A DNA stretch of 31,832 bases. Source: a virus. The notes below the pieces were generated by a model. It was not told where the DNA came from. It was given only the letters and a program-made list of their open reading frames with translations, and ran no database searches. Numbering within the stretch: the stretch's first letter is position 1; each line of letters starts with the position of its first letter. Of the stretch, positions 4,288 through 31,658 are shown one piece after another. The stretch spans positions 1 to 31,832 of IMG/VR virus record IMGVR_UViG_3300027911_000046, one strand, 5' to 3'. The translations under genes were made by a program, and so were the position numbers.

Positions 4288-4548
4288 ATGAACGGTAAAG
4301 GCTCCGCCCGTCGTCCGACGCTCGTTTCGCTGGCGTCGTTCGCTGAGAACTGGGACCGGATATTCGGGGAACGACAAAAGCCGCCTCCCGAAGGAAGCGG
4401 CCCTGCCCACACACCAGCTATCTATTCCCCCTACAGCGGACTACCCCTCGTGCTCACCCTTAATAAACTTGCCGGCCAGACCACCCAGGGTGGTTGCGAG
4501 GTTGACGGCCCAGCTGGGGTCAATGATGAAGCCCCCGGCGAAGGCTAG
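4288..4548 (+). CDS. Small basic phage protein (KGSxRRP...NWDRIFG type) with long tail
   Basis: The first 32 residues, beginning MNGKGSARRP and followed by FAENWDRIFGE, match a very common short phage protein with a KGSxxRP...F..NWDRIF pattern and no known function. Family members are usually about 40-60 residues; this frame runs on to 86, crossing the convergent terminator at 4376-4401 and overlapping the last minus-strand gene by 108 bases. The C-terminal 45 residues (Pro- and Gly-rich) therefore look like run-on with no selective signal. AAGGA at 4280-4284 is a fair ribosome binding site 3 bases before the ATG. It is the last plus-strand gene in the window. Confident for the N-terminal part, less for the end point. 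Confidence 0.7.
   Translation: MNGKGSARRPTLVSLASFAENWDRIFGERQKPPPEGSGPAHTPAIYSPYSGLPLVLTLNKLAGQTTQGGCEVDGPAGVNDEAPGEG
4376..4401 (-). terminator. Rho-independent terminator of the late operon (UUCG tetraloop)
   Basis: Read on the minus strand, a 9-bp stem GCCGCUUCC / GGAGGCGGC closes a UUCG loop on a C-G pair and is followed by UUUU. The one non-canonical position is a G-U wobble in the minus-strand RNA but a C-A mismatch in the plus-strand RNA. The uridine tract also lies only on the minus side, so the element is built for the leftward transcript. It sits 40 bases beyond the last minus-strand stop codon, where the two operons converge. Confidence 0.88.
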
Positions 4549-4695
4549 CCCTAGCGACACGGCGACATTGATCGTGTGGAGGGATACCTTGCCGGCCTCG
4601 GTGGTCTCGGCGTCCAGGTAGAGGAGGTAGAGGCCAAAGGCGACAAGGCCCAAGCCCCCTACCCACTGGAGGGCGGTTTTAAGTTTCGGTGACAT
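4441..4695 (-). CDS. Small membrane protein with two hydrophobic segments, lysis candidate
   Basis: This 84-residue protein has two hydrophobic stretches, about residues 10-27 (VGGLGLVAFGLYLLYL) and 43-60 (INVAVSLGLAFAGGFIID), separated by a short polar hinge. It ends in a Lys/Glu/His-rich tail (KFIKGEHEG). Small size, two membrane spans and a charged C-terminus are typical of holins, but the sequence matches no holin family I can name. It is the last gene before the operon terminator and its start overlaps the upstream membrane-protein gene by 17 bases, so the pair may work together. No endolysin is present in the window to support the lysis idea directly. A virion membrane protein is an alternative. 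Confidence 0.7.
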   Translation of the reverse strand: MSPKLKTALQWVGGLGLVAFGLYLLYLDAETTEAGKVSLHTINVAVSLGLAFAGGFIIDPSWAVNLATTLGGLAGKFIKGEHEG

Positions 4696-4978
4696 CGGGG
4701 GAGAGTAGAGCTCGGCGCTCGAGGGCGGTTAGTCGTTCACGGATGGAGTCAAACTCGGGCTGCATGGTCTTCCTGATCTGACCGGCTATGATCCGGCCCA
4801 AGCCCGGTGCGATCGCCCACACTATCAACTTCCAGGCGTACCGCAGCACAAACAACGCTGCCACGGTCGCTATCTCCGACCAGTCTGGGTGTATGGGTAT
4901 CAAGGGGGCAAGAAGTGGGTGGCCTTTCAGGAGCCCCCCGCTCCCTACTCGGCCAGAAAGGTCGTTAACGGGTGGCAT
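4679..4978 (-). CDS. Small membrane protein with C-terminal coiled coil
   Basis: The 99-residue product has a hydrophobic segment at about residues 34-58 (WSEIATVAALFVLRYAWKLI and the following VWAIAPG). After it comes a basic, helical, coiled-coil-like stretch (about 64-90) containing FDSIRERLTALERR. One membrane anchor followed by a coiled coil recalls i-spanin-like or holin-like lysis proteins; no lipobox or signal peptidase site is seen, and the N-terminal 25 residues are Gly/Pro/Leu-rich. The ATG lies 14 bases inside the 751-residue ejection-protein gene and the stop overlaps the next gene by 17 bases. Function in lysis is inferred from position and topology only. Confidence 0.7.
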   Translation of the reverse strand: MPPVNDLSGRVGSGGLLKGHPLLAPLIPIHPDWSEIATVAALFVLRYAWKLIVWAIAPGLGRIIAGQIRKTMQPEFDSIRERLTALERRALLSPDVTET

Positions 4979-7220
4979 TGAGTCCTGCTCCTGCTACGGG
5001 ACTGACGCGGGTTAGCGCGTTCCGCATGGCTTGGCCTGCGGCTGTAGTTCTGTTTCGCTCGGCGAGGCTCGTCTGTACCATCTTCCTGTCGCTGCCGGTT
5101 TTGACAAGGTCTGGGGCCGCTTTAGCCGATGCGGCTCTTAGTCGGGCGGTCTCGCCACCCCGGACAGCATGGGCGGCCATTTCGGCGGCGGCCCTGTGTT
5201 CGACAAATGGCAGCCTTGCCAGTTGCACAAGGGATGGCTTCCTGAAGTTGTCTTCGAGAGCGCCCTGAGAGGTGATTCTCTGTGCCGTTGCAGACCCTTT
5301 CATAATCGCTTGTCGGGTCGCCTCTTCGCCGCCATATTGGTCTATAGCGTCGAGAATTTTTGCGGGATCTGCTCCGACTGCATCGGCGAGCGCCTTGATC
5401 TTGGCCCGACCCTCACGGGAAGAGAACTGCGCCTGCCGGGGAGTGTTGGCGTCCCCCGTGGCACTCCCGGCCTGGGCGTCCACGTTGAGCCTCAGAGCAT
5501 CTATCGCGCCCTTGACATAGGCGGTCTTTTCGCTGCCGCCGACATCCTTAACGGCTTCTGTTATGTCGTAGGGTTCGGCGCTCTTGACGCTACCGAAATG
5601 TTCGGCACCAAGTTGCATCATTTCCTTGACGCGTTCATGGCCTGCGTACTGGTCGTTGGCCGCCTTCCATTCCGGCCTGGCATCGTACACCTGTCCGACC
5701 CAGTCCTGCAGGGCTTTCCGCGAACGGTAGGAGTTGTCGGGGCTGTAAATCTCGTTCTTGATGTTCTTGAACGTGTCGAACGAAAGCCCGGGCTCCCCGC
5801 CGGTCCTTATCTGGTCAGTAGTGCGGGAGAGGGTACCCTGTTGACCCGGGTCCCTGAGCGAACCCTCTGCCTTGAGCTTGGCCGCTCGGGCCGCCAAATC
5901 GCTGGGCCCGAAATTGGGATTTGTCTGGGTTGCGTCTGGCCTGGCCTGAGCCTGGAGTTTGGCATAAGCGGCCCGGGCTTGGTCCTGTAGGGGGTCAGGT
6001 TCCATGATCTTGGGCAGAACATCCCCGGTCTCATTGAGACTCGAAGTCGAGGCCCGGTTGTATGCATCGACCCATGCCGGCCGGCCCTGCCTTAGCGGCT
6101 TGAATATCTCGGGGGCCTCGCTTTCCGTGAGAGGTGCGGAGGCTCTGGCCTTTGCGTAGGCTGGTGTGGCGTCGGCCTGTTGGGCAGCTTCTTCGCCCCC
6201 CAGGTCCGCACTCAGCGATCCCGGGGTTAGGCCGAGCGTTTTTTCCACAGACCGGTATAGGCGGTCCGGGGTGCTCTTATTTCGTTCAGTGAGGGCCTGA
6301 TCCATGACCTGACCCTCGCGTCCGGCTTGACTGCGAACCGCCTGTGCCTGGGCCGGGTTAACATCGGCTAGCATCTTGTGGTCCGGGAGATTGGCGACAT
6401 CCGCCCCGTCAACGGTCGCATTGAGGACTTTGGCCTGGTCCGGCTCCATGCCCCGGTTAAATACCTCCCGGAGCTTGGGAAACCGATCGACCGTAGTTCC
6501 CGCGCCTGCGGTGAGGCCGTGGGCGAGGCCGCCGAAGAGCATGCTGCCGGCCGCCTCCGAGCCCATGCTCGTGGCGTAGTCTCCGGGGTTGTCTATCGGG
6601 TTTCCCTTGACCTGTGTCGCGCCGTGCTCGGCACCCATTGCACCGGCACCGGCAAGGGTCCTAAGGATGGAGGTGCCGGCCTTGACGCCATTACCGATAG
6701 CCGAGAACACGGGGCTGTCAAATGCGCCCACCGTCTGGGCTATGGTTGCCGTGTTGGGGTTCGCTCGATAACTCTCGTTCTGGCGGTCGAGCATCTGGTT
6801 TCGGATGTCGCCGTAGCTGTCCTGGGACCAATGAGGGAACGTTTCGGCCGCACCGATAGGATCAATGGCCTTGGCTAGTCGCCCGACCCCGTACTCCATG
6901 GCCGGTACTGCAACACTCGAGAGCCCCCCGGTGACCATATCACCGTAGCCATAGAGGGCGGTCGTCCCCTTACCCACATCTGGACCCATGGATGACTGGC
7001 CCGACTGACCTAACTGCGCCCGGGCTTTGGCTAGTTCTGCGTGGGGGTCGAAGCCTCCACCCATGCCCGAGCCCCCGCCCAACTGCTGGCGCGCCTTCGC
7101 GAGCTCGGCATGGGGATCAAATCCCTGCTGGGGGGTGTTGGCGTACTGGCCGCCAGGGGGTTGGCCCGGGACCTGGCCCGATACTTGGCCCTGCGACAGT
7201 GGAAGGCCGTCCTCGCCCAT
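4965..7220 (-). CDS. Large internal virion / ejection-type protein (751 residues)
   Basis: The protein opens with a Gly/Gln/Pro-rich leader containing two copies of FDPHAELAKARxQLG (residues about 34-48 and 57-71). A Gly/Ala-rich region with weakly hydrophobic helices follows (about 180-245), then long polar helices rich in Ala, Asp, Lys and Arg to the end. It lies last in a series of four Ala/Gln-rich genes downstream of the tail nozzle, where T7-like phages encode the proteins ejected into the cell with the DNA (gp14-16). I assign it by position and composition, not by a recognised domain; no lytic transglycosylase motif was seen. Gly/Ala-rich hydrophobic helices would suit membrane insertion during ejection. 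The next gene upstream ends one base before its ATG (TAAAATG). Confidence 0.78.
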   Translation of the reverse strand: MGEDGLPLSQGQVSGQVPGQPPGGQYANTPQQGFDPHAELAKARQQLGGGSGMGGGFDPHAELAKARAQLGQSGQSSMGPDVGKGTTALYGYGDMVTGGLSSVAVPAMEYGVGRLAKAIDPIGAAETFPHWSQDSYGDIRNQMLDRQNESYRANPNTATIAQTVGAFDSPVFSAIGNGVKAGTSILRTLAGAGAMGAEHGATQVKGNPIDNPGDYATSMGSEAAGSMLFGGLAHGLTAGAGTTVDRFPKLREVFNRGMEPDQAKVLNATVDGADVANLPDHKMLADVNPAQAQAVRSQAGREGQVMDQALTERNKSTPDRLYRSVEKTLGLTPGSLSADLGGEEAAQQADATPAYAKARASAPLTESEAPEIFKPLRQGRPAWVDAYNRASTSSLNETGDVLPKIMEPDPLQDQARAAYAKLQAQARPDATQTNPNFGPSDLAARAAKLKAEGSLRDPGQQGTLSRTTDQIRTGGEPGLSFDTFKNIKNEIYSPDNSYRSRKALQDWVGQVYDARPEWKAANDQYAGHERVKEMMQLGAEHFGSVKSAEPYDITEAVKDVGGSEKTAYVKGAIDALRLNVDAQAGSATGDANTPRQAQFSSREGRAKIKALADAVGADPAKILDAIDQYGGEEATRQAIMKGSATAQRITSQGALEDNFRKPSLVQLARLPFVEHRAAAEMAAHAVRGGETARLRAASAKAAPDLVKTGSDRKMVQTSLAERNRTTAAGQAMRNALTRVSPVAGAGLNATR
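7026..7121 (-). repeat. Duplicated FDPHAELAKAR segment in the ejection-type protein
   Basis: Two nearly identical copies of a 15-residue segment, FDPHAELAKARQQLG and FDPHAELAKARAQLG, are separated by eight Gly-rich residues close to the N-terminus. The flanks are low-complexity Gly/Gln/Ser, so the segments are likely short linear binding motifs on flexible tethers. Confidence 0.85.
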
Positions 7221-11191: not shown

Positions 11192-13759
11192 TTAGGTGAA
11201 CTGCATTACAACAACGCCATCGCCGCCGTTACCACCCGCGCCGGAGGTGAACCCGGTAAGACACGCGCCACCGCCACCTCCGCCTGCGCCGTACTTGGCA
11301 CCCGCTGCACCTTGGCCACCGTTGCCGGTGATTGAGGAACCACCGCCAGCGCCACCCGCGCCCGGCCCAAACCAGCCGTCGAAGTTCGTAGGGCTAGCGC
11401 CACCAGCACCGTTGATCGCGCCAGCAGTACCGCCCGTCTGCGCGCCTTGGGTATACGGCCCCGCTATCCCAGCACCGCCCGCGAATGCGGCAGGGGTTAC
11501 CGACACGCCGCCTGCGCTCGAGCCGCCAGAACCGCCCATCGAGTAGGTGGCTGTCGCACTGCCGTAGCCGTTACCGTTCACGGTACCCGCAGCGCCGCTC
11601 GTGCCCGCTTGGCCGTTAGAGCCCTGCGATGGGTTCCCGCCGCCCGAGTTGGTTCCAGTCTTGGCTACGCCCCCGCTTGAATTGGCGGCGAGTTTGCCTT
11701 GGCCACCGCCCGAACCGCTTACCGTGCCACCGTCAGCTTGCCAGATCGTTTTGCTGTTGCCGTCAACAATCTTGGCGTCCGCGCCGTTCGCGCCGTTCGC
11801 ACCGGCCTGAGCCGTTGTGCCCTTGCCTGCGCCACCAGCACCGCCCCGCGGACTCGTGATCGTGAGAGGCATTACTAGCGAGGCAACCGGGAACCACGCC
11901 TCGTTGTACATGCCACCAGCGCCGCCTGCGCCACCGCTTGCCGCCGAACCCGAGGTCTGGCAGGCACCCGAGCCACCACCGGCACCGCTCGCGAATCCCT
12001 GCGCCTTGACGAACGTCGAGCCAATCGGTGCGCTGTTGAGCGTGTAAGTAGATGCGCTCGCCGGAAAGACAATCGTGACGGGCTTGAAATTCGGGTCGGC
12101 GTACATGTACTGAGGCTCGTCATATGTGACATCCTCGCCGATCATGTAGCCGCTTATGCCACCGCCAGTACCGTTGGTGCCATTGGTGCCCGGGTTTCCC
12201 TGCGGCCCCTGCACCCCGGGGACGTGATACGGGTCATCCGGCTGTTCGGGTTCCGCGAACACGAGTGCGCCCATCGGTCCCTGCAGACCCGTCCCACCTG
12301 TGCTGCCGGGATTACCCTGGGGCCCCTGGACACCCGGCACATGGAAGGGCTCTTCCGGTACGTCAGGCTCGGCGTAGACCGTGATACCAGAGGTACCGCT
12401 GGTGCCGCTAGTCCCCGGATTTCCCTGCGGTCCCTGAGATCCCGGAACATGGAAGGGCTCTTCAGGGACATCCGGCTCTTGCCAGATTAGGGCGGCTGGG
12501 GTGCCTGCCGCGCCGGGGTTCCCTGTCGGCCCCTGAACGCCGGGGACATGGAACGGTTCCTCAGGGACATCGGGCTCGGCATAGAGAATCGCGCCGGGTG
12601 CGCCAGCGGCTCCTGTGCTACCGGGGTTGCCCTGCGAGCCAGGCGAACCGGGGATAACCGCAGGGTCGTCCGGAACGTCCGCGTCCTGCCAGTACATGGG
12701 GCCCTGTGGCCCTTGGGCCCCGGGATTACCCTGAGCTCCCGGGCTCCCCGGAACATGGTAGGGATCGTCTGGCGCATCGGGCTCGAACAGGAACGTCGCG
12801 CCAGCCTGACCTGGAGTACCTGGGTTTCCTTGCGGTCCCTGCCCACCCGGAACCATCATGGGGTCGTCGGGTGGGTCCGTGTCTACTAATGTTATAACAC
12901 CAGGCGCGCCCTGTATCCCTGGGTTACCCTGTGCCCCCTGGCCGCCCGGTACAGGCATGGCGTCATCAGGGACATCGGTATCCAGTATGAGCGTGTTTCC
13001 GGGCAAGCCGGGTGCGCCCTGGTTGCCTTGAGGGCCCTGTTGACCCGGGACGTGGTATGGGTCGTCGGGCTGTTCAGGCTCAAAGAAGTACGTGACGCCT
13101 GGAGCGCCGGCCGTTCCTGGGGCGCCTGGATTGCCACTCGGGCCCGGGTTGCCGGGGATGACCGGAGGGTCGTCCGGAACATCCGAGTCGGTCCAGAACA
13201 TCGGACCCGGAGGGCCCTGGGTTCCGGGAGCTCCGGCCGAGCCGGGGTTACCTTGCGGGCCCTGGCCGCCCGGTACCATCGGCGGTTCGTAGGGGTCGTC
13301 GGTATCGGCGAACGGACCCGGAGGTCCTTGTGGGCCCTGTGGGCCGGGGCCACCACCGCCCCCTCCACCACCACCGCCAGTAGTCGCAGTCCCGCTCAAG
13401 GGGATGCTGCTCTCGTCCCTAAAGGTCAGGACATCTATCGTGGCGTTGGCTGGTGCAGCTGTCCCGAAGTAGATCGTGACGCCGTTGACCGTCTTGGCAC
13501 CCGACCAGACTACCGTGAGCCAGTTGGGTACGATTGAGACGCCGTAGACTAAGTCGGGCTCGGGTCTCAGGAAATTCACAACGACTGCTGTGGTCGTTGC
13601 GGGAACCGCCATGTTGATCTGGTTCCCGCCCTTCGTCAGATGCCTACGACGAAGTATGTTTAGATGGGTCCACTGCTCGGGGTTTAGACCTCTGGTCGCA
13701 CCAGTTGTGTCCTCCGTCGGCATGGACGCCGGAAGTGCATCACCTTTCTTCTTGGGCAT
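11192..13759 (-). CDS. Collagen-like tail fibre with Gly-rich tip (855 residues)
   Basis: Three regions are clear. Residues about 1-125 form a compact, partly beta-rich head (HLNILRRRHLTKGGNQINM; NWLTVVWSGAKTVNGVTIYF) that may attach to the tail. A ten-Gly linker (128-137) leads to residues about 138-535, which hold Gly-x-y collagen triplets interrupted by 11 acidic plugs of the type EPDVPEEPFHVPG. Residues about 560-855 are an extremely Gly-rich domain ending GAGGNGGDGVVVMQFT, a known type of phage fibre tip in which polyglycine helices pack together. The whole looks like a trimeric host-binding fibre. AGGA at 13764-13767 is the ribosome binding site. The gene follows the nozzle gene by six bases, fitting a tail-attached fibre. 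Confidence 0.9.
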   Translation of the reverse strand: MPKKKGDALPASMPTEDTTGATRGLNPEQWTHLNILRRRHLTKGGNQINMAVPATTTAVVVNFLRPEPDLVYGVSIVPNWLTVVWSGAKTVNGVTIYFGTAAPANATIDVLTFRDESSIPLSGTATTGGGGGGGGGGPGPQGPQGPPGPFADTDDPYEPPMVPGGQGPQGNPGSAGAPGTQGPPGPMFWTDSDVPDDPPVIPGNPGPSGNPGAPGTAGAPGVTYFFEPEQPDDPYHVPGQQGPQGNQGAPGLPGNTLILDTDVPDDAMPVPGGQGAQGNPGIQGAPGVITLVDTDPPDDPMMVPGGQGPQGNPGTPGQAGATFLFEPDAPDDPYHVPGSPGAQGNPGAQGPQGPMYWQDADVPDDPAVIPGSPGSQGNPGSTGAAGAPGAILYAEPDVPEEPFHVPGVQGPTGNPGAAGTPAALIWQEPDVPEEPFHVPGSQGPQGNPGTSGTSGTSGITVYAEPDVPEEPFHVPGVQGPQGNPGSTGGTGLQGPMGALVFAEPEQPDDPYHVPGVQGPQGNPGTNGTNGTGGGISGYMIGEDVTYDEPQYMYADPNFKPVTIVFPASASTYTLNSAPIGSTFVKAQGFASGAGGGSGACQTSGSAASGGAGGAGGMYNEAWFPVASLVMPLTITSPRGGAGGAGKGTTAQAGANGANGADAKIVDGNSKTIWQADGGTVSGSGGGQGKLAANSSGGVAKTGTNSGGGNPSQGSNGQAGTSGAAGTVNGNGYGSATATYSMGGSGGSSAGGVSVTPAAFAGGAGIAGPYTQGAQTGGTAGAINGAGGASPTNFDGWFGPGAGGAGGGSSITGNGGQGAAGAKYGAGGGGGGACLTGFTSGAGGNGGDGVVVMQFT
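12161..13312 (-). repeat. Eleven collagen-plus-acidic-plug repeats
   Basis: Eleven repeats of about 32-40 residues (roughly 96-120 bases) alternate an acidic plug with collagen triplets. The plug has the form hydrophobic-x-E/D-x-D/E-x-P-D/E-D/E-P-x-x-V/I-PG and the triplets are usually QGPQGNPG plus two to four more. Copies differ by substitution and by triplet number, but the plug length is nearly constant. Two plug classes recur, one ending YHVPG/FHVPG and one ending PxVIPG/PMxVPG. Confidence 0.9.
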
Positions 13760-19930: not shown

Positions 19931-22489
19931 CTACTTGATCGGCTGACCCTGCTCGAACAGCCGGGTGTTTTGATCGCCGGAGGTGAGCCCGATCTGCTGC
20001 ATTGGGGCTGCTGCTACTGGCGGATTGTTGAGTGCTAGCGGGGCCTGCTGGGCACCCAACTGCTGGCCTGGGCCCTGTAGTGGTTGCTGCTGTTGGTTCG
20101 GGGCCGGTACCTCGCCCTGGCTACCGTCGGGTGGCCACATTGGGGGCGGGGTACCAGGCATCGGACCCATCATCCCCATAGCCATCGCCTGCTGCTTCGC
20201 TGCGCCCTGCTGGGCGAGCAAGATCCACCGCTCGTAGGCCGCCGCTAGCACCATCTGTGGCTGGTCGGGCTGGAGCAGGATCTCTTCTTCCAGGACCGTC
20301 TGGTGCGTGTGCTCGTCGTCCATCCAGAGGATGGGCTCGGGCATTGGGTTGCCGGTCTGGATGATCATCTGAGCTATGCGTTCGGCCCGTGCCTTGTGAT
20401 GCACGTCGGGCGAGTCCATGTTCCGGACCCATGCAAACGGCATCCGTGAGCGGTACTCCTGCGGGGAGACCAACTGCTTCTGGAACATGTCGTCCAGCAT
20501 CGAGAGCCTTAGGGACCGTGGCATCGGCATCAGGGTCTCAGGCTCGATCCAGACATGAGAGGTCTGGTCCAAGTCCTGATTGCTTAGGACCATTCCAAGA
20601 TCCGGGCGGCTCCGGCCCTCGAGCGCGATCTGCCTCGGGATGTCGTATCCCCAGCGCATGAACTTGAGGACGAGTTTCGCCCAGTCCGTGAAGGAGATTG
20701 ATGCCGCCTGGATCATGGGGGCGAAGACCCTCTCCAGCTGCTCACGAATCGCCAGGATCGCTCGGCCAGAGTCGCCCGCCGTCATCGACCCACGGCTCGT
20801 GTCGTTCCAGCCGGTCAGATCCTCAAACCGTTTCTGGTTCGCCTGTAGGGCTTGAACAACGTCGGGACTGATCGGGTGGCCACCGACCTCCTTTAGAACA
20901 TCCTGGAGGGGCATCGTACCCTTCACCCCCCAGATATTCATGCTGCCGGCCGAGAAGGACTCGGTGCTGATCGTCCCCTCTCTCGCGAGCACATTGATAC
21001 CCGAGTGCTTTCTGATCCCCTCGACCCACTTGCTCCAGAGCGTGTTCTGGCGGATCTGGCTATCGACCCACTTGTTCATTTCCGCTATGGGGAAGAACGA
21101 GGGATCGGTACTACCATCCGTCCAGCGAACGATTGGAACCTCGCCAATCAAGAGGGGCATCGGCGGGACCACGAGCTTGTTCGCGACAAGGGTCATTTGG
21201 AACCCGGTCGGGATGTACTCCGACTTCTCTGCGTAGACCGTGACCCTCGAGACCGTCTGTTGGGTCCGCGTGAGCTCGTCGATTTCGGGGTAGATAAACC
21301 CCATCCTCGAGATCGGGATGTGTTGGAGGTTGTCGTCGTAATTGAACGTGCCAACCTCGTCGGCCACATCCTTGCCATACGTCCTGACCGCTTCGTTCTT
21401 GCTAATGACCTCCCGGATCAACCAAAGCCAGGGCCGCCTGGTGGCGGTTGCCTCTGGCGAGACTCGCACCTGCTCGATGCGTCTCACACGGGTTCTGACA
21501 TCACCCGCCGGGAACTGACGTGTCCACGGCAGTAACGCCTTGCCTGATTCGGGATCTACATACGTCTTAGGGTCAACCCACGGACCTGCATCCGGGTCCC
21601 AGTAGAGCTCCAGGAAACAAACACCGTCCGTGCCAGTCCAGTACGCCCCTTCCTGAACAATGAGGGGCATCTTCTGCTCTTTCCACGAGTACTCTAAGGC
21701 CGCCTGTGCCGCCTCGGCCCGTTTCACCTTGTCATGGTCCTGCGACTCGGGCTCACAGTTAAAGCCCGGGCGCTGCTCCATGATGAGTTGGATACGCTGG
21801 TCAAGGGCCGGCGAGATCATGTTGTCCACGATCCGGGCCGCGTCCCTCGGCTTCATGGGCTCTCTCCAGGGCCCGAACCCAACACTACTTATCCACTGCT
21901 GCCCCTTCCTGAACAACCGGTTCCGCTCGACCATGTGGATGATCGCATAGGTACCGGCACCGTAATTAGTCCAAGCGTGCTGCGCCCACGATACCCAATC
22001 GACCTCTGTGGGGTGGTCCTTGAGGAGTGGGAAGTCATCGCCGTAGAGGGCCGCGATAGCACTCCGGTCAGCGGGGTCGCTAAGACTACCGCCCGATAGT
22101 ACCGATCCCGAGTCGTCGCCCAACCCGTACATGGAATGGCCGGTGACGGAATCCCCGCCCGCAGCCGATCCGTGCCCCTGTCCCTGTCCGATCCCGGTAG
22201 TGGCACTCGTACCGGGCTCGTTACCCATCCCAGCACTACCCATACTAGTCACCTGACCACTCGGTGTAGCACCGGTCAGTTGCTCGAACCCGGTAGCGGG
22301 AGGCTGGGGTTGTACCCCCAACTGTCTGACAGCCAGATCCTCAGAACTCGGGTTCTGGCCCTCCGCCATCAACTGGTCAAGACCATCCAGACTTACCGAA
22401 TGGTCGCCCATAACCCCGTCCCGAAGAGGTCCTATCTTCTTGGGGTCTACCTGCGCGAGTGGGTCGGGGTTGAACGGTACAGCCGCCAT
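19931..22489 (-). CDS. Portal protein (852 residues)
   Basis: The product has the podovirus-type portal pattern. The core carries NRLFRKGQQW and RIVDNMISPALDQRIQLIME, a wing-like middle with WTGTDGVCFLELYWDPDAGP and FFPIAEMNKWVDSQIRQNTL, and a stem/crown region containing LTGWNDTSRGSMTAGDSGRA. It ends in a Pro/Gln/Met-rich tail of about 90 residues. A Gly/Ser-rich N-terminal extension of about 110 residues precedes the core. Twelve copies would form the ring at the unique capsid vertex through which the terminase pumps DNA. It lies directly upstream of the scaffold; the ATG follows the previous stop by one base (TAAAATG). Length is at the large end of the family because of both low-complexity ends. 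Confidence 0.9.
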   Translation of the reverse strand: MAAVPFNPDPLAQVDPKKIGPLRDGVMGDHSVSLDGLDQLMAEGQNPSSEDLAVRQLGVQPQPPATGFEQLTGATPSGQVTSMGSAGMGNEPGTSATTGIGQGQGHGSAAGGDSVTGHSMYGLGDDSGSVLSGGSLSDPADRSAIAALYGDDFPLLKDHPTEVDWVSWAQHAWTNYGAGTYAIIHMVERNRLFRKGQQWISSVGFGPWREPMKPRDAARIVDNMISPALDQRIQLIMEQRPGFNCEPESQDHDKVKRAEAAQAALEYSWKEQKMPLIVQEGAYWTGTDGVCFLELYWDPDAGPWVDPKTYVDPESGKALLPWTRQFPAGDVRTRVRRIEQVRVSPEATATRRPWLWLIREVISKNEAVRTYGKDVADEVGTFNYDDNLQHIPISRMGFIYPEIDELTRTQQTVSRVTVYAEKSEYIPTGFQMTLVANKLVVPPMPLLIGEVPIVRWTDGSTDPSFFPIAEMNKWVDSQIRQNTLWSKWVEGIRKHSGINVLAREGTISTESFSAGSMNIWGVKGTMPLQDVLKEVGGHPISPDVVQALQANQKRFEDLTGWNDTSRGSMTAGDSGRAILAIREQLERVFAPMIQAASISFTDWAKLVLKFMRWGYDIPRQIALEGRSRPDLGMVLSNQDLDQTSHVWIEPETLMPMPRSLRLSMLDDMFQKQLVSPQEYRSRMPFAWVRNMDSPDVHHKARAERIAQMIIQTGNPMPEPILWMDDEHTHQTVLEEEILLQPDQPQMVLAAAYERWILLAQQGAAKQQAMAMGMMGPMPGTPPPMWPPDGSQGEVPAPNQQQQPLQGPGQQLGAQQAPLALNNPPVAAAPMQQIGLTSGDQNTRLFEQGQPIK

Positions 22490-23638: not shown

Positions 23639-26600
23639 TTACTTGGTTGCTATGAAGATGTCGTCGAAATCCCAGTACATATTGACAGGTGGACTTGCCG
23701 TGCCACCGCCGTATGTGGGATCGAAGATGATCGAGGGCCAGCCAACAGTCATGCCGGCAGTGAGGAACTGCACACCCGTCTGCTGGAAATGGTTGACCTG
23801 ATCAACCCAAATGTCGATGACTCCGTCACCGGCCCCGATCGAAGTCTCGGGCGTGGTTGACACTTCGACATAGTGCCAATTGCCATCGCTGATAATAAAT
23901 CCAGCGTTCGGCGAGGCTGGTGCGTAGTTGGCAAACAATCCGTTCGGCCCCTGCTTGGCCCAGCCGACCGGGAATCGCGTTGGCGTGCCAGCGCCCACAT
24001 AGCCGAAGACCACCGGGTTGCTGGTTGCCCCCGCGCCGCTTCCCTGATTTTCGGAACGGGGCTCGTATATCTTGACTGAAGCGTTTGTAGAGCAGGTCCA
24101 GTTGGCCGAGTACCGAATCCGCATCCGAGCATAGAGATACCCGGTACCCTGGGGCGTGCCCCCTGACGCGAAGTTCGGAGGGGCGAACCTGACTGGCGAC
24201 CACCCGCCACTAAGGTTGGTGGGGTAGTTGATCCTAAGACCCGTGTCCGGGGCCGGAGTAACTGTGAGGTTGGCGCTTGTCTCGCCCTGCGCGGTCGGGC
24301 TAGAGGGGGAAAAGATTGAGAAGTTCGACGGGATGGCCGTCATCTTGCCGGTGGCGATCTGGGTTGTCATGCCACCGGGCTGGTTGAACAGCGTGCTGAT
24401 GTTCACCGTAACTGTGCAGATTTGACTGAGCGCCGTACCAATGACACCCACAAAAACGGTCCCAACGCCACCCGCGACCGCCGTCACTACCAGTGGTGGC
24501 GAACCCGTGACAGTACAAATCGACGGGGTTTGGGAAAAGGGGTTGAGCGTGAACCCCGATGTCATCACGTTCAGGTACTGGTCCTTGACCGTCGCCGTGA
24601 TCGTCGTGGTCGAACCAATCCCGTTGATCGTGACCGTTGTCGGATTAAGAGTCAACGACGACGGTATTGACGCGGCCTGGCATGTTACGAGAGCCGTACC
24701 GGCGACCGCCGTACCCTGTAGTGCCGCCGTGATGGTCGAGGTGCCGGACGCCGTAGAACTCGCTGCGACATGCCCCGACCCGTCTACCGTTATGCCGATA
24801 CCGGAAAGGCTTGATGTCCAGGTGTAGGCGTTCGGCGCGCCGTTCCACGCGCCGGGCGACGTGTCGGTGGTCCATGCGTATTGGCCAACCGGGAGAGCCA
24901 TTGCGTTCGATCCGACCTGCGCGGTCGCGCTTGTCGGGGTAGTACCACTCGTCGCATCGCTAAACGCGCAGTAGTAGAGACAGGTTGCGTCCGACACCGA
25001 GGGTTTGGCGCTCTCAGAGCCGGCGGCCCTAAGTGTGTTGAACACCCCAACACCCTGACAGATTTCCGACCGGGTTACCGTTGTACCTGCGGCAACGTTT
25101 AGCCCAACCTGACCATTCGCGCCTGTGCCCGGCAGCGCGCCACGGCCCGCCGTATCAAGCACGGTCGCGTTCGGGTCAATCAGGGCGTTCGAACCGTCGC
25201 CCTTATAGACGCTGACGCCGTGGTTGTCACCACCGCCGCCAGCAGAACGGTACCAGGCACGGACGATGATGTCCTGCCCGTTGACCGGCATTGAGGCTGC
25301 GGGAATGTTGCCGGTCTTGAGACTTACGTTCGCGTTCGACATCCCGGCCCGGAAGAGACCGGCACCGTTGTTCTCGAGCGTGACCGAAATCTTGCGGTTG
25401 GCACCACCGCCCGTACCGTCGTCGATCGTACCGACCGGGAGAACATTGAATCCGCCGAGCGCGGCCCAGTTATCGACCCTTACCCGCCACACGGTGTCAA
25501 TACATGTGGTGAGTGCCTGGATGCTCGCGACATTGGCGCAGTAGGCGGTATTGCCGGCCGTGAGGCTGATCGCGCCGCCAGCGGTAAAGCCCGCGAAGTT
25601 GAAGGCGTTCCCGAACTGATCGACCGGGGTTGGTACCTCGGTAACGGTGCCACCAGGCGCCAATACGGTACTGGCAGGTGAGAGTGTTACTGCCGTGAGC
25701 GCGGGGGTGGTCGTTGTTACGGTGAGACTGCCAGTGACGCCCTGCGCGGTCGCCGTTATGTGCGCCGTCTGCGAGCCCGAAAGTGCCTGGATCGTGCCCG
25801 TCTGATCGACCGTGACCTGCGCGTTGTCTGACGCCCACGTAAGTATTCCCGGACTTACCACACCCCCGAACTGATCTAGCACCGTCGGTGTTATGACGTG
25901 GTTCAGGGCGTCATTGATTGACGTGCCGGACGCGAGGGCGAGGGTGATCGACGTGACCGCCGCGAGCGGAGTCGATACGGTGGCAGTTGCTGTCTGGAGA
26001 GGGCTTGACCCGGCAATCGTGGCCGTAATGATGGCGTTACCGCCAGTACCCAGCGCGCTCGCTGCAGCCGTGTAGGTCCCAGTGCTAACCACTGAGATAT
26101 GGCCGGAGTCAGAACTCGTCCACACAAGCGGTGTCGTGAGTGCGAATGGGTGGCCGAACTGGTCAACCACCGTCGCCACGAGCGTTACCGTCGAGCCCTG
26201 CGCCGTGAGGCTTGTGCTCGAGGGGCTGATCCCGCTGATCGTCGGCACCAGCGTTGCCTGAGCCGTGATCGTCGAGACACCCGTAGCAGCCTGGTTGTAC
26301 GCCTCAACATACGTGGTGCCGTTGCCCGCATAGCTCACGAGCCCCGTCCCACTCACGGTTACAACACCAGTATTGGCCGAGATCCAACTAAGCGCGCCCG
26401 GGCTGGTCGCGTTCGGAAGCCCGTACTGGTCAAGCCCGGAGGTTGTTAGCTGGATGGTGCCGGTCGTAAGTGTCGCGACCGCTGGACTGAGTGTCAGATA
26501 CGTGAGGACCGCAGGGCTCGAGCTCACCGTGATCGACGCGCTAATGATCGGCGCGCTCGTCGTTGAGACCGTGACGGTGGTGTTCGAGACTCCACCCGCA

Positions 26601-28498
26601 AGTGCCGACATATAGATGCTCGGCACAACCACGATATTGGCGTTGTTGCTCGTGGTGGTTATCGGGGCCGCGTTCTGGTTCCCCCACGCATCCTTGACAT
26701 ACGCCACGAACTGGTGCTGGTAGGCGTCGTTGAGCGTGATCGACGACGGAGGGGCGGGCTTACCAGCCAGATAGTTGATGACCGCGTAGTAACTCGGCTT
26801 TAGCGTCGGGATCGGCGTTCCGTTCGCAGCAGTCGAGCCAAAGTAGTCCGCGAAGAGCAGGGGTCGCTGTGCGAGCCCGTCACTACGTGGGTTCACGCTG
26901 TTGACGACGATCCCACTCTCGGGGTCCCTCAGGCCCCAGATCATGAAGTGGTCGGGCTTGGCCGAGGCCGCGTCGCAGGCCAAGAGGTAGTTCGTGTAGG
27001 CCTGGGCCACTGCTGTATCGCGGAGCGCTATACCGGCCGGACCCGTCCCGATGTACATGTCGTCCTGCACATCGAACTCGGTGATCGCGTATTTGTAGCC
27101 CGCGCTCGTGATCGAGTTAAAGAGCGCCGTCATCTGCGCCAGATTGAACTGGGCGACCGTACCGGTAGTGTTCTGCAAGAGCGAGCACTTGACGTGCCCC
27201 TCGATACCGACCGTCAGGTTGGATGCGCCGCCAACCGAGCCCGCAGTCGCTATCGCACTCATTAGCGAGAGTACCGCGGTTGCCTGGGCCGGAGTACCGT
27301 AACCGGTACCGTCGTAGCCGAAGGTCCCACCACTCACTTCGATCTTGGCGCCCGGATCGCCCGCGTATATCTGCTGGGCGAATGTGGGGAGCCATGTATT
27401 GGGCGAGCCCAACTGGTTCGTGAACGGGTTGGCGACCGCCGAGCCGAACGCTATCCCCTGCGAGAGGATGACATAGCTATGGATCGCACCGGCCGAGGTT
27501 CTGATCCATGCGTACTCACCGCTTGCCGTCGTCGCGCCAAGTGCCGGGGTTATCCCCGAGAAGTTCGACTGCGCGATATACGTCCACTTAAACCCGTTGA
27601 ACGTTACGGTGTTGCCGTAGGTATAGGTCGTGCCCGCATTATAAGCCGCTGGGGTACCTGGCGTGTTGTAGTGGCTCGTGATCGCGGTACTGATCGCCGA
27701 TAGGAGGCTGGTGGCGGTGCCCGAGGACGTGCAGTAGGTGGTAAGGCCGGTCCACTGGTTGGCGGCTGACCCGTCCAGGATGTACGCCTTGAACTGGGCG
27801 CCGATCGCCTGCGCGTGAGCGAGGTCGTAGTCGAGCGCACCCTTGAAGTTCGTGGTGACGGTCGTCGCGCTCGTGACGGCACTGATCCACCCCTCGCGAT
27901 AGGTCGTATCGCCAAGAATGCTCCCGCCGTTCATCAACTGTTGGTATAGCTGCTGGTATCCGGGGTGCTGCTCGTAACCAAGCAACTCGGAATTAGCGAG
28001 CCCGATTGTCCATCCGGCAGCGGCTGCAGCTGCCCCAAGGTTCGGATACCCAGCACTTATCGTGATGGTGGCCGGGCCGCTGGCAGGCGTTGTTACGGTC
28101 GCAGTGCCAGAGGCGGACGAACTCGGCACACTGGCCGTGATCGTGACGTTCGCGCCCAACTGGAGCGCGGTCGCTAATCCTGTCCCGCTAATCGAGACCG
28201 CGTTCGGGTTGCTCGAGGACCAGTTGATCGTCGCACCCGAGTATGGGACGTTGTACTGGTCCAGCACGGTCGCCACGAACTGCTGGGTCCCGTTCTGCGT
28301 CGTTATATTGACGCTCGCCGGACTAAGCGTGAGCGTTGTCGGCTGGGAGGGGAGCGGAAGCGTCAGTGCGACGACGTTACAGATGAGCGTCGTTGTCGGC
28401 TTCTTGCCCAGCGCTACCGTGAGGGTGGTCTGGCCGCCTATCGTGTAGGCGGACGGTAGCGTGCCCTGCTGGACAGACGACCCTATAAGAAGGGCCAC
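23639..28498 (-). CDS. Giant tail protein: Ig-like repeats, GH10-like barrel, lectin-like domains
   Basis: The 1619-residue protein starts at GTG 28498; no other start is available before an upstream in-frame stop. Domains in order: Ig-like (about 55-137, with VLDQYNVPYSG); GH10-like barrel (145-585); Ig-like repeats at about 585-665, 667-750, 754-845 and 849-932; a sixth Ig-like unit opened by a long insert (about 967-1185) that looks like a concanavalin-type fold; a seventh Ig-like unit (1280-1367); and a C-terminal concanavalin/lyase-like jelly roll (1376-1619) ending YWDFDDIFIATK. The Ig units share LxLxP...VxDQxG and AxGxVxxxG-type turns as in BIG2 domains. Together this suggests a host-surface glycan-binding or degrading tail spike or fibre. 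The 118-residue gene before it carries a related Ig-like fold. Confidence 0.88.
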   Translation of the reverse strand: MALLIGSSVQQGTLPSAYTIGGQTTLTVALGKKPTTTLICNVVALTLPLPSQPTTLTLSPASVNITTQNGTQQFVATVLDQYNVPYSGATINWSSSNPNAVSISGTGLATALQLGANVTITASVPSSSASGTATVTTPASGPATITISAGYPNLGAAAAAAGWTIGLANSELLGYEQHPGYQQLYQQLMNGGSILGDTTYREGWISAVTSATTVTTNFKGALDYDLAHAQAIGAQFKAYILDGSAANQWTGLTTYCTSSGTATSLLSAISTAITSHYNTPGTPAAYNAGTTYTYGNTVTFNGFKWTYIAQSNFSGITPALGATTASGEYAWIRTSAGAIHSYVILSQGIAFGSAVANPFTNQLGSPNTWLPTFAQQIYAGDPGAKIEVSGGTFGYDGTGYGTPAQATAVLSLMSAIATAGSVGGASNLTVGIEGHVKCSLLQNTTGTVAQFNLAQMTALFNSITSAGYKYAITEFDVQDDMYIGTGPAGIALRDTAVAQAYTNYLLACDAASAKPDHFMIWGLRDPESGIVVNSVNPRSDGLAQRPLLFADYFGSTAANGTPIPTLKPSYYAVINYLAGKPAPPSSITLNDAYQHQFVAYVKDAWGNQNAAPITTTSNNANIVVVPSIYMSALAGGVSNTTVTVSTTSAPIISASITVSSSPAVLTYLTLSPAVATLTTGTIQLTTSGLDQYGLPNATSPGALSWISANTGVVTVSGTGLVSYAGNGTTYVEAYNQAATGVSTITAQATLVPTISGISPSSTSLTAQGSTVTLVATVVDQFGHPFALTTPLVWTSSDSGHISVVSTGTYTAAASALGTGGNAIITATIAGSSPLQTATATVSTPLAAVTSITLALASGTSINDALNHVITPTVLDQFGGVVSPGILTWASDNAQVTVDQTGTIQALSGSQTAHITATAQGVTGSLTVTTTTPALTAVTLSPASTVLAPGGTVTEVPTPVDQFGNAFNFAGFTAGGAISLTAGNTAYCANVASIQALTTCIDTVWRVRVDNWAALGGFNVLPVGTIDDGTGGGANRKISVTLENNGAGLFRAGMSNANVSLKTGNIPAASMPVNGQDIIVRAWYRSAGGGGDNHGVSVYKGDGSNALIDPNATVLDTAGRGALPGTGANGQVGLNVAAGTTVTRSEICQGVGVFNTLRAAGSESAKPSVSDATCLYYCAFSDATSGTTPTSATAQVGSNAMALPVGQYAWTTDTSPGAWNGAPNAYTWTSSLSGIGITVDGSGHVAASSTASGTSTITAALQGTAVAGTALVTCQAASIPSSLTLNPTTVTINGIGSTTTITATVKDQYLNVMTSGFTLNPFSQTPSICTVTGSPPLVVTAVAGGVGTVFVGVIGTALSQICTVTVNISTLFNQPGGMTTQIATGKMTAIPSNFSIFSPSSPTAQGETSANLTVTPAPDTGLRINYPTNLSGGWSPVRFAPPNFASGGTPQGTGYLYARMRIRYSANWTCSTNASVKIYEPRSENQGSGAGATSNPVVFGYVGAGTPTRFPVGWAKQGPNGLFANYAPASPNAGFIISDGNWHYVEVSTTPETSIGAGDGVIDIWVDQVNHFQQTGVQFLTAGMTVGWPSIIFDPTYGGGTASPPVNMYWDFDDIFIATK
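26744..28066 (-). other. GH10-like domain with an inserted binding-module-like segment
   Basis: Residues about 145-585 of the tail protein follow the order of family 10 glycoside hydrolases (xylanase type). GIEGHVK (431-437) matches the G-x-x-x-H strand, AITEFDVQDD (471-480) the nucleophile strand with E474 (codon 27077-27079), IWGLRDPESG (520-529) the beta-8 Trp, and RPLLFADYF plus KPSYYAVINYL the C-terminal end. Between the third and fourth strands lies a segment (about 284-333) containing YNAGTTYTYGNTVTFNG and WTYIAQSNFSGITP, typical of CBM5/12-type chitin-binding modules. The canonical WDVVNE acid/base strand appears as HSYVILSQG, with Gln347 (codon 27458-27460) at the Glu position. So either the acid/base comes from elsewhere, or the domain only binds glycan. 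Confidence 0.75.
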
Positions 28499-28879: not shown

Positions 28880-29668
28880 TTACGCAGCTACCGCCGAGTG
28901 ATTGGTTACAGCCCACGCGCCGATCGTCTGGACTTGGGCGGTTGTCGCGAGGAAGTTGAGTACTATCGCAGCCGAGACAACGATCGCCGAGGAGGGTGAG
29001 CTTGTGCCGGTCTGAGCGGCGATCGCGAAACTGGTTAGGCCCGCAGTGCTCACGCCCGCGCCGGTTGCTACCTGGGACTGGTTGTATGCCTGGACAAAGG
29101 CACCGGTACCCGCACCGTTGACCGAGACCGCCACACACCGGACGGTCGCGGCACTGGCGACACCGCTCGAGGTGATTACGCCGCTATTGGCGAACCGGAC
29201 GCCGTAGACCCCACCAGCCGTGTTAAAGAGATCACAGCTTGGGCTTGGGCCGTCCAAGGACATGAGTGTAGACGACAGAGCGACACCCGAATCCGAAAGA
29301 ACGCCGATAATCGTGCAGGGACCGGCCGCATTAACGCCCGTGACTGTCGAGAATGTGGAGAACCAGAGCGGATGGCTCGTTGTCGCCCAAGTGATGACGC
29401 TGCCAGCGCCCGATACCGTGGGACTGGTCGAGCCGGCGGACCCAGGAACAAGCGTCGGACCAGCACCAACCGTCCGGCAATCAGCCCACGCGGTAACGTT
29501 TGGGTTACCAGTGACGTTTACCCTTCGGTCGTAGAAGGCCGCTACTCCACCGTTCCCACCCAAGTTGGAAATGAGGGTGTTGACATCGGAGAGGGTGCTG
29601 TAGTTACCGCCCGGTACCCAGAAAACCGCAGGTAGTGCCTGCCTCAAGCTTAAATTGTGGGCCGACAA
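28880..29668 (-). CDS. Lectin-like beta-rich structural protein (262 residues)
   Basis: The frame starts at TTG 29668; no ATG lies in its first 130 codons, and the start falls four bases after the upstream stop. The product contains ALPAVFWVPGGNYSTLSD, VAAFYDRRVNVTGNPNVTAW, then a Thr/Ser/Ala-rich region with a run of strands, and ends TTAQVQTIGAWAVTNHSAVA. A strand-rich middle, with FYDRR..V....V..WAD early and a closing helix of this type, is common in phage proteins with a concanavalin-like (LamG-type) fold. It probably belongs to the tail or capsid surface. Specific ligand unknown. Confidence 0.75.
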   Translation of the reverse strand: MSAHNLSLRQALPAVFWVPGGNYSTLSDVNTLISNLGGNGGVAAFYDRRVNVTGNPNVTAWADCRTVGAGPTLVPGSAGSTSPTVSGAGSVITWATTSHPLWFSTFSTVTGVNAAGPCTIIGVLSDSGVALSSTLMSLDGPSPSCDLFNTAGGVYGVRFANSGVITSSGVASAATVRCVAVSVNGAGTGAFVQAYNQSQVATGAGVSTAGLTSFAIAAQTGTSSPSSAIVVSAAIVLNFLATTAQVQTIGAWAVTNHSAVAA

Positions 29669-29672
29669 CTAC

Positions 29673-30170
29673 TTAACCCCTTTGGCCATTGTATTCTGCG
29701 ACCGAGAACGTGACAGAGCCGCTGATCGAACCCACCACAATCGAAACAACCCCAACACCTTCGCCCTTCGGTGAAGCGAGTGCTGGGGTAGCGTCCTGCT
29801 GGGTGACTGTCGTCAGGGCACCCATACCGGTAAACGCCTGCTTAGAGGTCTGAGAGTCGGCGTAAGTCGTGTAGCCGCTTGTCGTTACGGTCGTACCACC
29901 ACCGAATGTCGCCTTGATATGCGTCTCGACGCTCGACATCCCGTTAAGCGGGAACGAGCAGAGGTAGGTGCCGTTCGCCGTGAGCGATGCCCCGAGCAGT
30001 GGCTGGCCGATCAGGTTCTCCTGACCCGCTGGTACCGGTGAGACATAGGCCGCTTGCAGGTACGGGTGGCCGGGAGAGGCAGCGGAGCAGATTCTCAAGA
30101 AGTCCTGGCCCCCTAGAGCGGCCTGGTTGAACTGCTGTTCTCTATTATTCGGATCGTAGGGAAGGGCCAT
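29673..30170 (-). CDS. Small structural protein (165 residues)
   Basis: The protein begins MALPYDPNNREQQFNQAALG with a short helix, followed by strands in ATFGGGTTVTTSGYTTYADS and GVGVVSIVVGSISGSVTFSV. It ends EYNGQRG. The gene is the first after the terminase, one of a set of small beta-rich genes (29673, 28880, 28513) before the giant tail protein. No domain is recognised; the composition fits a virion surface or tail accessory protein. The stop of the terminase gene lies three bases before its ATG. Confidence 0.72.
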   Translation of the reverse strand: MALPYDPNNREQQFNQAALGGQDFLRICSAASPGHPYLQAAYVSPVPAGQENLIGQPLLGASLTANGTYLCSFPLNGMSSVETHIKATFGGGTTVTTSGYTTYADSQTSKQAFTGMGALTTVTQQDATPALASPKGEGVGVVSIVVGSISGSVTFSVAEYNGQRG

Positions 30171-30173
30171 TCG

Positions 30174-31658
30174 TTATTCCGGAATCTGGTCTTGCCAGCC
30201 GCGTAGCCGGCCGACGTAAGGGGCTGTCTTGGGTCTCGAACCGCTTTCCATCGCGTCGGCGAGGAGGTCATCCAACTCCACCTCGTCTCGGTCGCGGTTC
30301 TCGGGCATCCTGTGCTTCTTGTCTGCTGGTGTTATAGGCCGAGAGGCCAGGGCATAGCGAAGTGCGTCGTAAGGATCGTCGCCACCTTCCGAATCAACGG
30401 CGTCTAATTTGAGGGCGTCCTCAACGTCATCTGGATCTATGACCATGGTCTCAAGGCAATCGAAGAGCTTGGCGTTGCCTGGAGTCTTGCAAATCCGTAA
30501 TCGCGGGAACTCGGGCGTCATTGGGTCCTTGTTCTCAAGACCCCGCCACTTCAAGTACTCCCGCATGTTGTTAAGCCCGAACTTCCGTGAGATATTCGCC
30601 CGGTCGCAGCGTATACCGGCCGTCATGAAGTGCTCGGCTATGCTCGGCGTGCTCTCTCCACGGGCCCTTAGCTCGTCGAACGTGTCGCGGCCCGCGTGTA
30701 TGTAGCTAAGTGTGTGAATTGGTACGCTTTCGCGTATTCTGTCAGCGATTTCCTTGGGGTTTTGCTTGTGCCCGTGGATTGTGTTCACGACATACGTAAC
30801 ACCGGTCGGAGACACCGCTAACCACGTAAAACACCACGGATGGATGAAACCCCAGTCGAAACCGCCGAATTTGAGCCAATGATCGGGAATCGCGTACTTT
30901 CCGGTCTCATCGTGCGGAAACGGAGGGCAGAAGTGCTTGTCTCTCGAGAGCTCCGTGAGAGCCAGCCCATCGGCCGCGTCCCAGTTGCCGTGGAGAAGCA
31001 TCTCCCTTCTCACCTCGGGCAACGTCTCCAACTGCGAGACATATCGCCTGTCCCGCATGAGGTAGATATTGTCCGAGAGCCGGGCCGGTATGAACCGTCT
31101 TAGGGTGCCCGAGGGCGTCTCGTAGACGGTCTCCCCGTTGTTCGTGGGGACGATGAACCGACGCTTGAGCCAGCCGTGGCCCTTACCGCCCGGGTTACCG
31201 GTCCCCCTAGCCATCAGGACCAGATCCTTGTGCGGCGTTCTGATTTCGGCGATCAGGAGCTCCCAGGCCCGCTCTTCCGAGAGGTTCCCGAGCTCGTCGT
31301 AGATGATTGCCGACCAGCCCCTACCCTGATACCGGTTGATGTCCTGCTCGCCGGCATAGTACCCGATTTCGACGAACGCGCCCGAGGGGAACGTCCACTG
31401 GTTGTTGCCGCCGTGGTAGGTGGCCCCCAAAGCGGGGTAGAGGTTCTTACAGCGTTGCTGTAGGTACTTGAGCTCATCCCACCGTTCGCGTAGCAACAGG
31501 CACCGGAACTCCGGATGCGTGATCTGCTGGAGGGGGAGAACTACCGCTACTTCGCTTTTACCGCCGCCCTTGGCACCGCCGTAAAAAACCTCGAACTCAG
31601 GTGCGGCAAGGAACAACTGCTGGGGCCGACTACACGGGCTCCATTGCCCGTCTGCCAT
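30174..31658 (-). CDS. terL: Terminase large subunit
   Basis: The 494-residue protein has the two terminase domains. The N-terminal ATPase shows Walker A GGAKGGGKS (27-35, K34), an adjacent LLLRERWDELK segment, and Walker B AIIYDE (117-122, D121 and E122), followed by the coupling motif MARGTGNPGG (149-158). The C-terminal RNase H-like nuclease has GGFDWG (265-270, D268) and HAGRDTFDELR (321-331). DDPYDALRYAL (427-437) holds the last acidic positions. It pumps DNA into the procapsid through the portal and cuts it at the end of packaging. The ATG directly follows the stop of a small basic ORF. Portal and terminase are separated by about 7.7 kb of tail genes, which is unusual. Confidence 0.94.
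   Translation of the reverse strand: MADGQWSPCSRPQQLFLAAPEFEVFYGGAKGGGKSEVAVVLPLQQITHPEFRCLLLRERWDELKYLQQRCKNLYPALGATYHGGNNQWTFPSGAFVEIGYYAGEQDINRYQGRGWSAIIYDELGNLSEERAWELLIAEIRTPHKDLVLMARGTGNPGGKGHGWLKRRFIVPTNNGETVYETPSGTLRRFIPARLSDNIYLMRDRRYVSQLETLPEVRREMLLHGNWDAADGLALTELSRDKHFCPPFPHDETGKYAIPDHWLKFGGFDWGFIHPWCFTWLAVSPTGVTYVVNTIHGHKQNPKEIADRIRESVPIHTLSYIHAGRDTFDELRARGESTPSIAEHFMTAGIRCDRANISRKFGLNNMREYLKWRGLENKDPMTPEFPRLRICKTPGNAKLFDCLETMVIDPDDVEDALKLDAVDSEGGDDPYDALRYALASRPITPADKKHRMPENRDRDEVELDDLLADAMESGSRPKTAPYVGRLRGWQDQIPE

Follow-up and report, generated by a model that had tools for sequence, protein, structure and literature searches.

A GH10-Like Barrel with Gln at the Acid/Base Position in a Phage Ig-Repeat Protein: Probably a Decayed and Reused Enzyme Domain

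The Locus and Its Phage

The stretch of DNA analysed here (the window) is 31,832 bases long and comes from IMG/VR as a virus record. It represents the first 31,832 bases, in reversed orientation, of the 48,024-base contig IMGVR_UViG_3300006162_000020, with 100% identity wherever the two were compared. The minus strand of the window carries the genes for the terminase large subunit, the portal protein, and the major head protein, and the gene for a protein of 1,619 aa containing a GH10-like barrel lies between the terminase and portal genes (Table 1). The terminase had its best match, at 39.9% identity, in a Caudoviricetes sp. from Manatee Spring; Pelagibacter, Puniceispirillum, and Roseobacter phages came next (~34–36% identity). 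IMG/VR searches with three queries (the terminase, the small gene upstream, and the C-terminal domain of the GH10-like protein) revealed no phage closely related to this one.

Two genes without a PHROG match (28880–29668 and 29673–30170) are located between the terminase gene and that of the GH10-like protein; their products may likewise be virion surface proteins. The part of the contig beyond the window (31833–48024) contains open reading frames whose translations, inspected by eye, resemble a large helicase/primase, an AAA-type ATPase, and a CHAP-like endolysin.

Table 1. Features of the GH10-like protein and its surroundings (positions in the window unless another contig is named).
Feature	Position	Strand	Basis or remark
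Terminase large subunit	30174–31658	−	phrog_979, 5e-39; upstream of the GH10-like protein gene
Virion-type protein of 1,619 aa carrying the GH10-like barrel	23639–28498	−	Uninterrupted open reading frame
GH10-like (β/α)8 barrel, residues 145–585 (approx.)	26744–28066	−	Pfam, PDB match, AlphaFold2, Foldseek, HMM
CBM5/12-like insert of 58 aa, residues 279–336	27491–27664	−	Between helix α3 and strand β4
Ser346, replaces the invariant Asn preceding the acid/base	27461–27463	−	Alignment
Gln347, codon CAG, GH10 acid/base position	27458–27460	−	phmmer, MAFFT, and HMM alignments
Glu433, replaces the invariant Gln of G-[IL]-Q-x-H, β6; candidate replacement acid	27200–27202	−	Alignment
His435, conserved active-site His, β6, kept	27194–27196	−	Alignment
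Glu474, GH10 nucleophile, ITEFDV, β7	27077–27079	−	Alignment
Trp521, conserved β8 Trp, kept	26936–26938	−	Alignment
Gly529, replaces an invariant Trp (SWL to SGI)	26912–26914	−	Alignment
Portal protein	19931–22489	−	phrog_156, 1.1e-21; downstream of the GH10-like protein gene
Virion-fused GH10	4440–7161 (L009)		Contig IMGVR_UViG_3300046656_000291

The Protein Carrying the Barrel

From the N-terminus, the protein consists of ~50 aa, an Ig-like domain, the GH10-like barrel with its insert, several Ig-like domains, and a C-terminal part. The Ig-like domains after the barrel are Big_2/invasin-like (Pfam Big_2 and Invasin_D3), and no domain was assigned to the region ~975–1215 or to the C-terminal domain. 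A reading made earlier from the sequence only had placed the barrel inside a tail protein of Ig-like repeats. The repeats were recovered, but the tail assignment was not: the gene sits between the terminase and portal genes, the protein has no PHROG match, and the tail-fibre matches of the window fall in a separate gene (11192–13759). The protein is probably located on the virus particle. Its gene context, together with that of the virion-fused GH10 described below, hints at an adhesin displayed on the head or neck, by analogy with the Ig-like capsid decorations that have been proposed as adhesins displayed on phages (PMC9853417).

The C-terminal ~250 aa (window 23642–24391) showed a similarity to PL14 (0.0065) below the Pfam cutoff. 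A single-sequence model of this domain, predicted to be all-β at low confidence (pLDDT 39.6), gave no significant fold match; it is possibly another glycan-binding domain.

GH10 Identity and Fold of the Domain

By sequence, the domain was assigned to GH10. Searched alone, it matched Pfam PF00331 at 1.2e-5 (25.1 bits against a cutoff of 22.1), the match spanning model positions 211–297 of 311 only; with the whole 1,619-aa protein, the value was 8.1e-5. The nearest solved relative found by phmmer was a β-xylanase (PDB 9uj3, 5.1e-10). An HMM of 38 cellular GH10s gave the domain 72.1 bits, its C-terminal half 73.8 bits, and the two halves joined without the insert 88.7 bits. Meanwhile, the N-terminal half alone (strands 1–3) scored 0.3 bits, no better than a shuffled sequence, so that the residue assignments in this half are only probable; its register depends on context and model.

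For the AlphaFold2 prediction, the two halves of the query were added to the alignment as separate rows, which placed the insert between α3 and β4. An initial alignment, in which MAFFT paired GNTVTFNGFKW of the insert with GHTLLW, was discarded. The model obtained from the 42-row alignment had a pTM of 0.79 and a mean pLDDT of 75, with about 75–93 in most core blocks, it being understood that an input alignment of GH10s biases the model to the GH10 fold. The predicted structure is a (β/α)8 barrel with the strand order of GH10 and the catalytic positions at the ends of β4 and β7: β4 comprises domain residues 197–202 and is directly followed by Q203 (Q347 of the full protein), β6 bears E289 and H291 (E433 and H435), and β7 bears E330 (E474). 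Among the Foldseek matches listed, the nearest PDB structures were GH10 xylanases or entries titled xylanases, with TM-scores by target length of up to 0.87. The earlier description of the region as a GH10 barrel is thus upheld by the Pfam match above the cutoff, the β-xylanase relative, the model, and its best structural matches; the alignment likewise confirmed that the nucleophile strand ITEFDV with E474 and the β8 Trp (W521) are kept, as is D476.

The Acid/Base Position and the Rest of the Active Site

The phmmer alignment paired ilsqgia with VVNEAVS, MAFFT paired IHSYVILSQG with IYSWDVVNET, and the register of the HMM was identical. With one register from all three methods, the Gln that had been aligned to the acid/base position by eye is retained there as Q347. 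In the alignment of 85 rows, this column contains Glu in 82 rows, a gap in two, and Gln in the query only; Glu is therefore present in 82 of the 82 other GH10s having a residue at the column, and the change from Glu to Gln is unmatched among these homologues, as had been supposed. Besides the same contig, no relative sharing the change was found in IMG/VR, and a search of 385 genomes of one class for a closer cellular relative yielded only ordinary GH10s (open frames of 373–434 aa).

The pair Asn-Glu, located on β4 in GH10 enzymes, reads Ser346-Gln347 in the query, and the β7 Glu nucleophile is present. β4 and the loop following it offer no acidic residue between E328 and D381. On β6, the position of Glu433 is occupied by Gln in every other aligned row (84 of 84). 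In the weaker register of the N-terminal half, the Lys of ENEMK is probably replaced by Arg201, the His of GHTL by Tyr239, and the Trp of TLLW by Gly243. The conserved set of substrate-site residues (β2–β3, β6, and β8 with its loop) is thus not preserved as a whole, His435 and Trp521 being kept. The single Gln previously noted at one site stood, but the change is not confined to it, as the positions of Asn346 and Trp529 are lost as well. Because these other positions have changed too, the active site is, judging from the alignment, decayed as a whole and not merely at one residue.

Fifty-four columns are conserved at 90% or more in the 38 cellular GH10s. The query matches 29 of them, including 22 of the 34 in the C-terminal half, and the intact phage GH10 described below matches 37. 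Both are ~25% identical to cellular GH10s, and the query has lost conserved catalytic residues (N, E, Q, and W) at columns where the other phage protein keeps them.

The Insert

The 58-aa insert is bordered by ITSHYN (the end of α3) and AIHSYV (β4). Its existence agrees with the sequence-only reading, but its proposed CBM5/12 identity is weak: alone, it matched PF02839 at 8.4e-4 (19.8 bits against a cutoff of 26.2) over 23 of 44 positions, and this partial likeness below the Pfam cutoff is no more than suggestive. Its pLDDT in the AlphaFold2 model was about 35–45 over most of its length. In a TIM barrel, the loops leading from helix to strand lie at the opposite end of the barrel from the active site. 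The insert, forming the α3–β4 loop, is therefore unlikely to reach the catalytic centre, and E328 is its only acidic residue. The idea that it could supply a substitute acid was rejected as unlikely on these two grounds.

Relatives in Phages

The IMG/VR contig IMGVR_UViG_3300046656_000291 (L009/L090) encodes an intact GH10 (1.5e-40) fused behind a phrog_3758 domain (2.2e-25), a family in the head-and-packaging category annotated as virion structural protein. This fusion shows that GH10 can be joined to a virion structural domain in phages, and it is a possible virion-borne xylanase. On one side of the gene is a terminase small-subunit match, and on the other, where the contig ends, an open frame that was read as the terminase large subunit from a P-loop-like motif. 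A second phrog_3758 gene lies just upstream of the fusion.

Among GenBank phages, the query found no GH10 relatives. Four gut records named 'Bacteriophage sp.' (MT835713, MT836723, MT838685, and MT837910), found with the L009 protein, were not accepted as phage GH10s, having ordinary bacterial gene content; they may represent bacterial contamination of a phage collection. By eye, they contain tRNA-synthetase-like and transporter-like genes.

A Probable Role in Glycan Binding

With the changes and the gene context seen in the sequence and with the predicted fold, we infer that the domain is rather probably a GH10-derived, non-hydrolytic glycan-binding module on the virion. A tailed phage would have acquired a GH10 xylanase-type barrel into a large virion protein of Ig-like repeats, and the barrel would have lost GH10 catalysis and retained its fold. 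The double-displacement cleavage of glycosidic bonds typical of GH10 is most likely impossible, because Gln347 is accompanied by further losses in the sugar site, namely of the Asn, one Trp, and probably the Lys, the His, and another Trp. The glycan, presumably a polysaccharide, would probably be bound at or near the old groove, the CBM5/12-like insert may assist binding from the opposite face, and the whole protein would serve the particle as an adhesin that holds glycans multivalently without cutting them. Sugar-binding phage proteins can derive from enzymes. The weak or non-hydrolytic glycan-binding role suggested earlier is accordingly rated as likely, given the Gln together with the wider losses in the site.

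The branch of the query in the tree was 5.48 long against a median of 0.31, as expected once the catalytic constraint is lost, and too long for the query to be placed. According to the title of PDB 5ofk, an engineered GH10 variant, E140Q/E248Q, was crystallised with xyloheptaose; loss of the acid thus need not prevent binding. Meanwhile, the old groove itself may no longer bind, since the sugar-stacking positions Trp529 and probably Trp243 are gone. It should be noted that the glycan-binding reading is drawn from a single phage.

The same losses bring in the main rival to glycan binding, a barrel that serves as a ligand-free structural spacer between the Ig-like domains, any binding being left to the insert, the Ig domains, or the C-terminal domain. 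The missing aromatic and polar sugar-contact residues and the many Ig-like domains flanking the barrel fit such a role, but E474, H435, W521, and D476 are kept on the groove side, where a spacer has no obvious need of them, although they may stabilise the fold; we consider the spacer unlikely.

The retained groove residues could also belong to a working glycosidase in which the acid has moved from β4 to β6, Glu433 (or Asp242 of β3) acting as the proton donor and Glu474 as the nucleophile. In GH10 structures, the acid/base Glu has the β6 Gln as a near neighbour. Glu433 replaces this otherwise invariant Gln, and the whole ITEFDV strand with Glu474 as well as His435 and Trp521 are in place, Glu433 being a more plausible replacement acid than the insert. 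However, the positions of Asn346, Trp529, and probably Lys201, His239, and Trp243 are lost, so that no intact −1 sugar site remains, and the long branch also speaks against retained catalysis; a relocated acid appears improbable. Slightly less credence still is given to an exchange of Glu and Gln (Gln347 on β4, Glu433 on β6) in a GH10-fold glycosidase that would be tuned to a bacterial surface glycan and not to xylan. A barrel merely decaying in one phage lineage, without a present role, would agree with IMG/VR relatives limited to the same contig and L009, but it is very improbable with a frame open over 1,619 codons, barrel strands predicted where GH10 has them, and most conserved residues of the C-terminal half kept.

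The sequence finding is sound, and the domain is probably, as far as sequence comparison can tell, a decayed and reused enzyme domain. The acid/base Glu is invariant in the GH10s examined, which makes a naturally occurring Gln at this position of a virion-type protein informative. The query and the intact virion-fused GH10 form a pair for testing the conversion of an enzyme fold into an adhesin and a way to ask which surface glycans such phages recognise.

Comparison with Known Systems

In the literature, we found no matching case of a natural GH10 pseudoenzyme or a phage tail GH10, and no report of a GH10 barrel reused for phage sugar binding; for GH10 on virus contigs, a presumed role as an auxiliary enzyme has been reported (PMC6460857). 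With the GH10 β-xylanases of the Sphingomonas/Caulobacter/Massilia type (9uj3, 9upa) and Cex of Cellulomonas fimi (2exo), the query has in common the barrel fold, the ITEFD strand, the β6 G-x-x-x-H, the β8 W-G, and the C-terminal PR-x-DGL-x-QRP. It differs from them, at the ~25% identity given above, by the replacement of the acid/base Glu with Gln, of Asn with Ser, of the β6 Gln with Glu, and of SWL with SGI, as well as by the insert and the embedding in a phage Ig-repeat protein. The L009 GH10 is likewise phage-encoded and adjoins terminase genes, but its catalytic pair is intact (VVANE, ITELD), it is fused to phrog_3758, lacks the insert, and is only 19% identical to the query.

In a viral fold library, the nearest structures were barrels of other glycosidases, for the most part GH5 proteins of phages, and their TM-scores were low. 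These domains (e.g., in Pseudomonas phage POR1) are also clan GH-A barrels and the nearest viral folds, but they belong to family GH5 and reach TM-scores of only ~0.38–0.46 to the query. The termite-gut GH10 xylanase PDB 4hu8 resembles the query in having GH10 beside a bacterial Ig-like domain; it is, however, cellular, and its depositors call the protein a xylanase. CBM insertion is known in phage adhesion proteins: the evolved Dit of lactococcal phages and other CBM-bearing virion proteins contain, like the query, a CBM within another phage protein domain, the host domain and CBM type of the evolved Dit being unrelated to those of the query (PMC6669499).
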